In this document: in pieces, positions 11,169 to 18,071 of the stretch
Layout: each line of letters opens with the position of its first letter
How positions within the stretch are numbered: the stretch's first letter is position 1
Assembly: GCA_951812625.1 (NCBI GenBank)
Contig: CATOSP010000001.1
Location: 326,065-390,064, forward strand
Direction of reading: 5' to 3'
Source of the DNA: an uncultured Dehalococcoidia bacterium
Lineage (GTDB): Bacteria > Chloroflexota > Dehalococcoidia > Lucifugimonadales > UBA3495
Length of the DNA stretch: 64,000 nucleotides
Made by a program: the position numbers and the translations under genes
The notes under the pieces: model-generated
Told to the model about the DNA's origin: nothing
What the model saw: the letters and a program-made list of their open reading frames with translations, nothing else
The model's database searches: none

Positions 11169-11342
11169 TTAAAAGCCATCGGAGCCCGAAGCAACCGCCA
11201 CACCCTGGCACTCCCCCGCCGTGCCCGCCGGCACACGCGCAACCACCCTGCCCAACCTATCGGCAAGCCGCTCCTCTACCCTTTCCCAGGTAGTACTAGC
11301 TTTGCACTCCCATCCAGAACCCGGCGCAGGGTCAGTAGTCAC
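11169..11342 (-). CDS. Small protein coupled to the HEPN-like gene
   Basis: A 57-codon frame starts with GTG overlapping the TGA of the upstream gene (GTGA, four-base overlap), the usual arrangement for translational coupling. The product (VTTDPAPGSGWECKASTTWE... ending VAVASGSDGF) is unrecognised; it has a predicted helix near residues 19-37 and two cysteines. It could be a small partner of the HEPN-like protein or a chance frame. Beyond its end (10957-11168) I see nothing. Confidence 0.3.
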   Translation of the reverse strand: MTTDPAPGSGWECKASTTWERVEERLADRLGRVVARVPAGTAGECQGVAVASGSDGF

Positions 11343-12604
11343 AGCCTACCGTAAAGCATGACCTGCGCTGCCGTTTGAGACAGTGGGAGAAGCCACGGAG
11401 ACAATCGTGAGTGATTGGCGGTGGTTGGCGCTATCGTTGTCGACTGCCGCGACTCGCGTGCGTGAACTAGCGCGTTCCTAACCCGATGCAAAGCGTGCGA
11501 AAACTGCCTATTCCAAGATTGTACAAAATCTTCATAGCCGGCAGATGTACTCACAATCGCCGGTAGAATGAAACCTCCATCTAGCTCAACTTCTTCGGAA
11601 AAAGCGTCCAGAGATCCGTCCAACACATCCCACATCTCCTTGAGGTCTACACACTCTTCAATCATTTCGTTTATTTTTACTTCGTCAGACCTCCTTTCTG
11701 CGGAGATGGCGTCCAGTATCTGTTGAGCCACTCTGTCAGGGCGGGAGACGGCATCGGGAGCGACAATTGCTCGTTCGATGTCACGTCGGACGTTGGCCTT
11801 GACATGATAGAACCCGGCGTATTCCAGTATCTGGTAGTAGTGGATAAACCTGAGGAAAGGGTCACCTCTCCGAGCACTTTCCCAGAGAATTAGGAGGTGT
11901 TGGTCTATATCTTGCCCAGACAGGGTGTCTGGAAAGTACCCCAAATGTGGCGGATGGGGATCATCGACCTTATGGGACACAATTTGCTCTTCGTGGATGA
12001 GGATCGTGGGGGTATGCCGATCGAAATAAGACATGTGGAAATTGAGGTTGCGGGCAAGATCCCCTATGCGGTCATCGTCGTAGTCATCAATCCCACGTAT
12101 CCAGAACGACGTAGGCTTCCCATTAGTAACGTAGTCAGAGTCTGGATGGGCTTCTCGCGTGTGTTCGAACCGATAGAATGGTAGGAGGTTGCGAAAGCCT
12201 GAACCTGCTGGGCTACCTGAAGGTCTTGCCCTTTGTGCGATGGCCATAAGCCTCGAGCTAGATGGCCCAAACCTACAGTGGTAGCAGTTCCCTTTATGCC
12301 GAAACTCAAAGCTCCTCTCCAGAAGGCGGTTCTCCTTCTCTATCACTGTAAAGATGACTTCAAACTCCCTTGTGTCTTCATGCCAGATAGCGGTGAACCG
12401 AGGAGGCAACCGCACAGCATTCAGGGCTTCAAACAGTTCTTCATCGTCACTGCGCAGGGGAATTTCGATGGCTTCCTCTCCCCATGCCCGAATAACCGAG
12501 GGGTCTCGTTCCCCCGTTCTGACCTCGGCTTCGGGGTTACGACAAAGAAACGCCTGCAACTTTGCACGAAGGTAGTTCGCCTCAGCTTCGTTTAATGAAT
12601 CCAT
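11339..12604 (-). CDS. Large hypothetical protein with C-terminal HEPN-like Rx4H motif
   Basis: 421 residues, cytosolic, no recognised N-terminal family. The last third is helical and contains HALHRVRNALVHARESR; the Arg376-x4-His381 spacing is the catalytic signature of HEPN RNase domains, preceded by helices such as FIHYYQILEYAGFYHVKANVRRDIERA. The N-terminal part has a beta-rich look (FTAIWHEDTREFEVIFTVIE). HEPN proteins often act in toxin-antitoxin or antiviral systems, and this one follows a toxin-antitoxin pair and a GTGA-coupled small frame, so a defence role is possible but unproven. ATG 12604 was chosen; an earlier start at 12622 exists. Its codon use is less GC-rich than its neighbours. 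Confidence 0.6.
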   Translation of the reverse strand: MDSLNEAEANYLRAKLQAFLCRNPEAEVRTGERDPSVIRAWGEEAIEIPLRSDDEELFEALNAVRLPPRFTAIWHEDTREFEVIFTVIEKENRLLERSFEFRHKGNCYHCRFGPSSSRLMAIAQRARPSGSPAGSGFRNLLPFYRFEHTREAHPDSDYVTNGKPTSFWIRGIDDYDDDRIGDLARNLNFHMSYFDRHTPTILIHEEQIVSHKVDDPHPPHLGYFPDTLSGQDIDQHLLILWESARRGDPFLRFIHYYQILEYAGFYHVKANVRRDIERAIVAPDAVSRPDRVAQQILDAISAERRSDEVKINEMIEECVDLKEMWDVLDGSLDAFSEEVELDGGFILPAIVSTSAGYEDFVQSWNRQFSHALHRVRNALVHARESRQSTTIAPTTANHSRLSPWLLPLSQTAAQVMLYGRL

Positions 12605-12729
12605 CCTTGAGTCTCGCCTCACTTACGTATTATTGAAGCCCACAGCACACTTGAAAAACTCGAGAATCTAGAACCTCATTCGCATTCTAACAAAGGGGCG
12701 GAATCGAGACAGGCGGCGGCGATAAAAAG

Positions 12730-15977: not shown

Positions 15978-16039
15978 CCCCACGCGGGCAGTACGTCCGC
16001 TTGAGACTGACCCCTAGAAACTGCACCGAGGAGGCTATC

Positions 16040-16438
16040 ATGGCTGACAGAACGCCCATCATACCCGCTGGCATCTCTCCCAACCCAGCCCTGTCGCCGG
16101 GAATCCAGGTCGGGGAGTGGCTGTTCATCTCCGGCAGCGTGGCCAATGACGCCAGCGGCACCCTGGTCGGACCCGGAGACTGCGAGGCCCAGTCCCGGCA
16201 GGTCATGACCAACATCCAGACCATCGCGGCGGCCGCCGGAGCGTCAATGGCCGACGTGGTCAAGATCACCTGCTTCCTGACCGACGTCGCCAACTACGGG
16301 GCCTACGGAAGGGTCCGCTCCGAGTTCTTCCCCCAGGACCCGCCGGCCAGCTCGACGGTCATCGTGGCGGGGCTGGTGCGCCCGGAGTACCTGGTAGAGG
16401 TCGAGGCCATCGTCCGGATTCCCGGCGGCGGAAGCTGA
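16040..16438 (+). CDS. RidA/YjgF/UK114 family protein
   Basis: 132-residue small trimeric protein of the RidA family; the archetype hydrolyses reactive enamine/imine intermediates released by PLP enzymes. Family pattern: PGIQVGEWLFISGSVA, QVMTNIQTIAAAAGASMADVVKITCFLTD, and the end PASSTVIVAGLVRPEYLVEVEAIV. The position of the substrate-binding Arg of true RidA (usually in PARS-type motifs) is occupied by PPASSTV, so this belongs to another Rid subgroup. ATG 16040 follows GGAGG by about six bases. A second, distinct RidA lies at 17682-18071. Confidence 0.85.
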   Translation: MADRTPIIPAGISPNPALSPGIQVGEWLFISGSVANDASGTLVGPGDCEAQSRQVMTNIQTIAAAAGASMADVVKITCFLTDVANYGAYGRVRSEFFPQDPPASSTVIVAGLVRPEYLVEVEAIVRIPGGGS

Positions 16439-16465: not shown

Positions 16466-17626
16466 CTAATTCGGTGGATTCCCGTACAGTTCCGTGCCGG
16501 GGTGGAAATCGCTCCACGCAAACCAGAATGAGTAGTGGGAGGGCAGACGCTCCAGCCCGGTGCCCGCTAACTGGCCGCTGACCGCCCGGCCCGTGAGCAG
16601 GTCCCACGTTGTGCCGGTCTCCCTGTCCTTCATCTGGAGAACGCCGTCGTCACCCGGGACTGGGGGCAACGTCTGGAAGGACAGGGTACGGTTGTCCACC
16701 ATCCGGTCGAACACGCCGCCGGTCTCGGACAGCGGGTCGAAGGTCACGACTAGGTTGCGCCCGGCGAAATAGTCGTTGGCCACCTTTTCGACGGAGAGCG
16801 CGCGGAAGGGATACGCCTTGACCGACTCCCCTTGGACCAGGCCTATGACCACGTCTTTCCTGGACAGGCGGTCGTCGGGATTGGACTCCCCGATCGCCCC
16901 GGCTGCTCCGGACCGGTAATAGTTCTCGTAATCGTCGGAGAAGTATCGCCCGTTCTTGTCCAGCACCAGGGTGTCAGGATATAGCTCAGACCACGTCTCC
17001 CAGTTGGTCTGCATCGACGGAAGGATTTCCAGCGGGGTCCCGGCCAGTGGTCCCTTGACGCCGCGGCTCAGGAACTGGCTCCAGAGGGTGTCGGTCTCCC
17101 GGTCGTACATGACCAGGGCGTTCATGATCAGCTTTCCCGACACTCCGAAGCTGTAGGTGGTGTCCCCGATGCGTCGGGCATATACAATGCCCGTGAAGCA
17201 GAGGGGTCACCAGGTCACGGCGATGGGAACGCCCGCAACCTCGTCATTGACTATCTCATGACGGCTGAGCATCTTGAGAGGATAGGCCCGCGCTTCGCCG
17301 TCGACCACGACCCCAAGCAGCCGCTCGCCGGGCAGCATCTGGGTCTCCGCCGCCGCCCCGGTCAGGAACCTGGGCTCGTCGATGGCGGGGATAGCGTCCT
17401 TCGACAGGACGGTGATGATGTCAAGGTCCAGCCCGCTGCCCGCTGCCGCCACACCGGGCGCCACGTTGCGGGAGACGGTCACCTCCTCGGAGTTGGCCTT
17501 CATCCACCAGTTGCGGGCGAATGGAAGGCCGATCGCCACCAGCGCGATGACGACCAGAACCACGCCCACAACATAGCCCCGCGTCTTGCGAGGGCGGCCT
17601 CTGCCCGGACTGATTTCGGGAAACAT
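16466..17626 (-). CDS. DUF3179 membrane protein, candidate selenoprotein (in-frame TGA)
   Basis: One reading frame of 386 codons broken only by TGA at 17209-17207 (codon 140). It has an N-terminal membrane helix (about 18-36) and two DUF3179 repeats: ERLLGVVVDGEARAYPLKML...HEIVNDEVAGVPIAVTW before the TGA, PLCFTGIVYARR...FGVSGKLIMNALVMYDRETD after it, and a second repeat from VVIGLVQGESVKAYPFRAL. From memory the family motif is TYCPLC; the TGA falls exactly on its first Cys, giving UPLC. A stable hairpin with the layout of a bacterial SECIS follows. Sec insertion is the leading reading; a simple Cys-to-stop mutation is the alternative. Without recoding it would be read as two genes, 17207-17626 and 16466-17143. 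Confidence 0.7.
17158..17212 (-). promoter_or_regulatory. SECIS-like hairpin downstream of the in-frame TGA
   Basis: On the minus strand, 13 bases after TGA, a perfect seven-base stem CGGGCAT/ATGCCCG (17193-17187 with 17181-17175) closes on a five-base loop TGTAT with G in second place. The loop begins 20 bases after TGA, inside the range described for bacterial SECIS elements. Below it TGC pairs with GCA and CCCC (17206-17203) with GGGG (17167-17164); TGGTG across the TGA can pair with CACCA, giving one long helix. Confidence 0.6.
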
Positions 17627-17681: not shown

Positions 17682-18071
17682 CTAACCCAGCTCCACGATG
17701 GCCTCGATCTCCACGTCCAGCCCATCCTCGGCCAGGGCCGTGATCTCGACCAGGGTGTTGGCCGGGTAATCCCCCCGGAAAAACTCGTTGAACAGCGCCT
17801 GCTGCTCATCTACGTGGGCCCGCCAGCCGGGGATGCTGGTCACGAAGGTAGTTATCTTCACGATGTCTCCCGGCGTGCCGCCCTCCTCCCCGACGATGCG
17901 GGTAATACGGTCAAGGGTGACGCGCAACTGCTCCATAAGGCCCTTGCCCTGGGCATCGGTGCCGCGGGCGGTGCAGCCGGCGATGAACAGCAGGTTGCCC
18001 ACCCGCACGCCGCGGCTGAATGTGGGGCCGGAGGGAGCGATGTCCGGGTAGTTCTTCCGAATCTTCTCCAT
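17682..18071 (-). CDS. RidA family protein (second)
   Basis: 129 residues, RidA/YjgF fold. Seen: SRGVRVGNLLFIAGCTARG, EQLRVTLDRITRIVGEEGGTPGDIVKITTFVTSI and the closing YPANTLVEITALAEDGLDVEIEAIVELG. As in the other copy, the classic substrate-binding Arg is replaced (PANTLVE), so substrate and activity are open. AAGGAG lies six bases before the ATG and a TATAAT box about 60 bases before it. It precedes the DUF3179 gene on the same strand with a 55-base gap and may be cotranscribed with it. Confidence 0.84.
   Translation of the reverse strand: MEKIRKNYPDIAPSGPTFSRGVRVGNLLFIAGCTARGTDAQGKGLMEQLRVTLDRITRIVGEEGGTPGDIVKITTFVTSIPGWRAHVDEQQALFNEFFRGDYPANTLVEITALAEDGLDVEIEAIVELG

Follow-up and report, generated by a model that had tools for sequence, protein, structure and literature searches.

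How is the single in-frame TGA of a DUF3179 gene from an uncultured Dehalococcoidia bacterium read? The gene occupies 386 codons on the minus strand of a 64,000-nucleotide stretch of contig CATOSP010000001.1 (hereafter the window), and its frame contains exactly one internal stop, with 139 open codons from the ATG to the TGA and 246 beyond it. We propose, with a probability of about 0.93, that the UGA is decoded as selenocysteine (Sec) by the SelB pathway and that the product is a predicted membrane-tethered redox protein. This proposal starts from direct observations, namely the UGA and its position, the machinery genes of the genome, a conserved hairpin behind the codon, and selection around the UGA in related pairs of genes. 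Standing at a conserved Cys of its relatives, in a genome that encodes the Sec machinery, this UGA is very likely read as Sec. A preliminary description, made from the sequence alone, had reported one frame of 386 codons with two DUF3179 repeats, one TGA interruption and no frameshift. Our frame reading, which likewise finds no frameshift, the Pfam match and the repeat comparison confirm each of these points. The read-through protein matches the whole DUF3179 profile (PF11376; profile positions 1-292, 296.7 bits against a cut-off of 27) and no other Pfam family; a scan of it against NCBIfam gave no match, and a sequence search of the PDB with the DUF3179 protein returned chance-level matches only. 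The same description had placed the TGA at the first Cys of the CPLC motif, giving UPLC, and this is indeed residue 140, where homologues carry TGC or TGT.

The source genome (4.03 Mb in 5 contigs, 94.9% complete, 4.4% contamination) contains a tRNA-Sec with anticodon TCA (UCA in the tRNA), SelB (346.9 bits), SelA (558.5 bits) and SelD (390.2 bits), so that all four components whose lack would have spoken against Sec are present. We note that the SelD gene (L021, G000:C2:793402-794325) has an in-frame TGA of its own, in the motif CAGUAAK, which makes the selenium donor enzyme itself a predicted selenoprotein; a Sec-containing SelD with the motif UxxK is listed in a review (PMC13188914). Could another tRNA instead insert Cys or Trp at the UGA, through a changed genetic code or suppression? 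Such read-through would yield the same reading frame. However, the Sec pathway genes are present, the one tRNA-Trp seen among five tRNA-Sec-like loci examined has the anticodon CCA, and a hairpin accompanies the TGA forms (see below). Furthermore, the two DUF3179 paralogues of the same genome, L001 and L003, themselves terminate at TGA, and UGA is thus also a stop in this organism. We consider decoding by another tRNA highly improbable, in agreement with the preliminary description, which had set aside a changed code. The presence of SelA, taken singly, says little and weighs against leaning on the machinery too heavily, since SelA is matched in 321 of 400 genomes of the phylum. As a discriminator it was rejected: SelA is found in every one of the 12 genomes for which a TGA form is listed (E <= 7.6e-147), yet it occurs in those 321 genomes as well. 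By hand comparison, about 10 of the 81 phylum genomes with DUF3179 show no good SelA match; a TGA form is listed for none of them, but the number is too small to weigh.

The position of the codon is more telling. Each of the three DUF3179 genes of the source genome carries one TGA, and each at the same codon (VTWUPLC, ITYUPLC and AYUTLC), which puts the placement in the window gene far beyond chance. DUF3179 is present in 81 of 400 genomes of the phylum; among the matches listed from these 400, one internal TGA occurs in 21, one TAG in 2 and TAA in none, and all 21 TGAs, in 12 genomes, fall at this one codon. Among 49 contrast homologues (L025-L054 and 19 of L073-L092, where L075 was too short to give a row), 48 have a Cys codon there, TGC or TGT, and one has GAT; the Asp form, L082, is also without Cys143, His123 and Glu124. 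A scan of named genomes with a DNA pattern for the Sec motif, which itself demands TGA and so shows how far the Sec form reaches but not how frequent it is, found at least 117 loci. All 117 match DUF3179 with the TGA at that codon, the lowest profile score being 91.4 bits. By record titles these at least 117 loci carry labels of 14 phyla, with 4 unplaced. Of the labelled loci, 57 are assigned to Chloroflexota, 13 to Zixiibacteriota, 9 to Acidobacteriota and 7 to Actinomycetota, and each of the other ten phyla accounts for 1-5. Nearly all of the records listed are metagenome-assembled and some phylum labels may be wrong, and a few loci come from genomes already covered in the phylum set (the tree shows L150 and L154 as identical to rows of G252 and G294). 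L103, labelled Actinomycetes, groups tightly with Chloroflexota in the tree and perhaps lies on a misbinned contig. Other TGA-for-Cys sequences in the family, which the preliminary description had suggested looking for, are therefore plentiful, and the nearest relatives of the window gene on the tree carry TGA, contrary to the possibility that close relatives all carry Cys. These observations bear on whether the TGA could be a misread or misassembled TGC or TGT. TGA is one base from a Cys codon, and the assembly is in five contigs and 94.9% complete; however, the same error would have to recur in all three paralogues and at least 117 loci, together with a hairpin that is not in register in Cys forms, and we regard it as exceedingly improbable.

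What distinguishes the TGA forms from their Cys homologues besides the codon? The window gene has a hairpin resembling the bacterial selenocysteine insertion sequence (SECIS), whose stem begins 13 nucleotides (nt) and whose loop begins 20 nt after the UGA. The 101 Sec stretches include 90 distinct ones, in which a mean of 6.21 of the 7 stem positions are paired, compared with 4.99 when the 3' arms are swapped (standard deviation 0.09; maximum of 2000 swaps 5.28). In 47 distinct Cys stretches the mean is 2.77 of 7 against 2.85 swapped, which is no gain. The remaining 37 loci, used only in the codon, phylum-label, hairpin and frame-length counts, gave 6.22 pairs, and their 31 distinct stretches new to the first set 6.13. 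Similarly, in the 68 of the 90 stretches on which covariation was computed, 88.2% of cells are paired against 70.5% after shuffling, and covariation is 0.394 against 0.113 (none of 500 shuffles reaches either value); sliding the partner by 1-3 columns lowers covariation to 0.051-0.095. Paired changes can be silent on both sides, for example Thr ACG with Arg CGN in 43 stretches and Thr ACT with Arg AGR in 5, with other combinations in 9. Likewise, shuffling of synonymous codons gave a mean z of -1.46 in 21 Sec loci (7 of 21 with p < 0.05) and -0.04 in 48 Cys loci (2 of 48). Because the rows are related, none of these hairpin statistics is to be read as a probability. We conclude that a hairpin with compensatory changes goes with the TGA forms, and that the Cys homologues, taken as a set, are without an in-register hairpin.

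Published limits for bacterial SECIS elements (PMC13188914, Fig. 2 legend) comprise a loop of 3-9 nt with G in the first two, a stem of 4-16 base pairs (bp), a distance of 16-37 nt from the UGA and an energy of at most -7.5. Applied in our own coding of these values, they admit the window gene (loop UGUAU, distance 20, -12.6 kcal/mol). Several results count against the proposal: the limits admit only 54 of the 90 Sec stretches and neither of the paralogues L001 and L003, and they also admit 11 of the 47 Cys stretches. Moreover, two of the five covariation measures used gave values that shuffling often matched, namely pairs changed on both sides (5 versus 4.2 shuffled; 139 of 500 as high) and pair types (13 versus 11.8; 137 of 500 as high). 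As to position, the passing Sec loops all begin at 20-22 nt and the Cys passes are scattered. L056 and L067 form a divergent Sec clade with the motifs UPAC and UVVC, in which the hairpin is shifted by about two bases and has a 4-nt loop.

Is the UGA a true stop, leaving a pseudogene or two short split genes? Gene callers do predict the downstream half by itself, the window gene's own public protein (P0002) being 219 residues long and holding only that half. In addition, fewer than 180 codons follow the TGA in 10 of the 117 loci: seven run to the end of the retrieved stretch, and three (L100, L130 and L191) close at a second TGA after 31, 134 and 115 codons, respectively. These three speak for a true stop, and they may be broken or misassembled. 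Selection argues in the opposite direction. The ratio of nonsynonymous to synonymous substitution rates (dN/dS) lies between 0.05 and 0.28 both before and after the UGA in all 12 close pairs compared; these were chosen by hand, include L003 in two and the window gene in none, and were limited to 110 codons upstream of the UGA. Compared with L102, L166 and L155, the window gene itself shows dN/dS of about 0.2-0.3 on both sides, at a dS of 1.0-1.8 that brings these values near saturation; for L001 and L119 no usable dS was obtained. Purifying selection thus acts in related pairs both before and after the UGA, and the downstream half shows no decay of the kind, an accumulation of stops, that would have spoken against Sec. 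The public proteins also speak against split genes. Among the best 120 public protein matches, 62 fall short of 270 residues, and all 62 lack the CPLC site; the 46 starts examined among the short proteins lie at or after the Cys of UxxC, and the starts disagree with one another. These short entries are probably Sec proteins that gene callers have truncated. With the UGA conserved at a single codon across loci that carry 14 phylum labels and compensatory changes in the hairpin downstream, a true stop is a very improbable explanation, and a pseudogene or a sequencing error is very unlikely. Decoding as Sec at the first Cys of CPLC, as the preliminary description had it, is strongly supported by the machinery, the conservation of the codon, the SECIS-like hairpin and the selection on both sides.

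How have the Sec and Cys forms come to be distributed within the family? On a FastTree phylogeny of 148 rows, from which L132 (its locus starts near the motif) and one too-short row (by length L100) are absent, the Sec/Cys label needs 7 changes, 4 of them forced by starred branches. On a quick IQ-TREE phylogeny of 75 chosen rows it needs 5 changes, 4 of them forced, and a single Sec clade is rejected (approximately unbiased test, p-AU 1.6e-5); the starred branches of trees built so quickly deserve less trust than those of a carefully made one. These phylogenies indicate at least four Cys/Sec exchanges in the family, in which gain and loss of Sec are indistinguishable since the trees are unrooted. 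The three paralogues of the source genome stand at three separate places: the window gene groups with SAR202/Dehalococcoidia Sec forms, L003 falls in a clade with UTLC, and L001 is placed with L119 inside a Cys clade, for which the plainest reading would be that Sec was gained or exchanged within that clade. Genome G010 carries both forms, with Cys in L076 and L077 and UGA in L068, and genomes of this kind offer a natural test of what Sec adds. In another genome two Sec-DUF3179 genes adjoin on opposite strands (L064 and L065, G027:C31:102973-103857 and 103897-104793), their matched stretches 39 bases apart.

What might the protein do? It is built of two truly homologous repeats (99.9% probability in a profile-profile comparison over 129 columns), and the UPLC motif is found in repeat 1 only (VTW-U-PLC), repeat 2 having DPLS there. 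The structure model predicts a beta-rich body, in which each repeat superposes on Rieske-type ferredoxins (2qpz, 1vm9) over 90-98 residues with a root-mean-square deviation of 2.5-4.1 for most small ferredoxin-like rows. The likeness to Rieske-type ferredoxins is one of predicted fold; DUF3179 differs from them in that its family alignment has no conserved CxH...CxxH cluster ligands and in that there is no relation between the sequence profiles, hhalign giving either repeat a probability of 0.1 against ten Rieske sequences from its own genome. A Foldseek search with the predicted models, which found nothing at E <= 0.001, weighs against the fold assignment. The Sec-x-x-Cys pair is shared with the UxxC redox selenoproteins, thioredoxin-like and others. 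By title, none of the 50 matches listed for each structure comparison is thioredoxin-like, a list that excludes nothing, and the DUF3179 body is, unlike thioredoxin-like proteins, predicted to be beta-rich.

We propose that SelB and Sec-tRNA(Sec) would decode the UGA, helped by the hairpin 13 nt downstream, and that the N-terminal helix would hold a two-repeat body outside the cytoplasmic membrane. This body would consist of two tandem Rieske-like folds lacking iron-sulfur ligands, with the Sec pair at a beta-hairpin of repeat 1, away from the cluster site. Sec140 would be the attacking selenol and Cys143 the resolving thiol, the two forming a selenenylsulfide near Glu124, Asn127 and, in most members, His123. 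The likely mechanism is that of a membrane-tethered, extracytoplasmic selenol-thiol redox centre, U140-x-x-C143; that redox role, location and fold are all predictions counts against the proposal. Alternatively, Sec140 and Cys143 could bind a metal or an iron-sulfur cluster in place of selenol-thiol chemistry, a reading to which the Rieske-like fold might point. The conserved Cys and His residues observed are, however, limited to H123, C/U140 and C143, neither repeat matches a Rieske sequence profile, and the structural alignment (protein 109-209 against 2qpz chain residues 2-96) puts residue 140 near chain residue 24-36. That place would precede the first cluster motif. A placement of U140 at a Rieske cluster cysteine was rejected on these aligned ranges, and we consider metal or cluster binding unlikely.

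Table 1. Features of the Sec-DUF3179 gene and its surroundings (window coordinates).
Feature	Position	Strand	Details
Sec-DUF3179 gene	16466..17626	-	386 codons, start ATG at 17626-17624, TAG stop at 16468-16466, single in-frame TGA; frame reading and Pfam match
In-frame TGA, predicted Sec140	17207..17209	-	First Cys of CPLC; context VTW-TGA-PLCFTG
Cys143, second residue of UxxC	17198..17200	-	Cys in 99/99 Sec rows and 46/48 Cys rows
SECIS-like hairpin	17175..17193	-	7-bp stem, 5-nt loop UGUAU
N-terminal hydrophobic helix, residues 14-44, predicted membrane anchor	17495..17587	-	Model helix; hydrophobic stretch read by eye
Repeat 1, residues 99-227	16946..17332	-	UxxC pair; Rieske-like fold predicted
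Repeat 2, residues 256-386	16469..16861	-	Without Cys/Sec pair; Rieske-like fold predicted
RidA-like gene (PF01042)	17682..18071	-	Upstream of the DUF3179 gene, same strand

The surroundings of the gene offer little in the way of functional clues. RidA-like genes (PF01042) lie on both flanks, at window positions 16001-16438 on the plus strand and 17682-18071 on the minus strand. Among the neighbours of 80 of the at least 117 loci there is no sign of a conserved RidA link; the largest shared neighbour cluster comprises 4 loci, and an example from it resembles, by eye, another DUF3179. Within the window, 33 TGA read-through candidates were listed by motif, the DUF3179 gene included, and two candidate pieces around 1840 (minus strand) have no Pfam match. 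A 427-residue open frame at 11339-12622 (minus strand), probably the HEPN-like gene of the preliminary description, likewise has no Pfam match.

Finally, is a Sec form of DUF3179 new? The preliminary description knew of none, and in this it was mistaken: a review (PMC9312934) lists a predicted DUF3179 selenoprotein with UxxC/T, crediting Zhang and Gladyshev 2007, and a second lists DUF3179 UxxC/T as 'predicted with high confidence' (PMC13188914). With two reviews (2022 and 2026) listing it, the Sec form as such is not new, and the window gene resembles the listed protein in family and in its Sec within UxxC. For DUF3179 the table rows of these reviews name a single representative accession, without details of fold, hairpin or distribution (PMC9312934, PMC13188914). 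In a literature search whose scope leaves most subscription papers outside, no paper was found that treats DUF3179 together with Rieske proteins, or selenoproteins together with Chloroflexi and SAR202; beyond the two reviews, DUF3179 is named in a paper titled on Idiomarina physiology. Compared with the Cys form of DUF3179 (PF11376), the window protein has the same whole-length match and the motif at the same place, and differs in that the Cys form has a TGC or TGT codon and no in-register hairpin over the 47 distinct stretches taken jointly. What the present analysis adds is the breadth of the Sec form, a minimum of four exchanges between Cys and Sec, the separate placement of three paralogues from a single genome, the frequent truncation of the protein in public sets, and a predicted fold.

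Taken furthest, these results can be imagined as describing a widespread extracytoplasmic selenoprotein of uncultivated bacteria, a cluster-free tandem Rieske fold in which the iron-sulfur centre has been swapped for a Sec-Cys pair at a new site, with Sec repeatedly gained or lost and three separately evolved copies in a single cell; this full picture is tentative, and we hold it to be somewhat less probable than its opposite. A family with one table row in each review becomes a broadly spread selenoprotein group, and about half of the window gene's closest relatives in public databases (62 of the best 120) are kept there as half proteins. Characterised selenoproteins in the catalogue are mostly thioredoxin-like (PMC13188914). 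If the predicted fold is right, a cluster-free Rieske-like scaffold would join that catalogue, and the role of DUF3179 would become testable.
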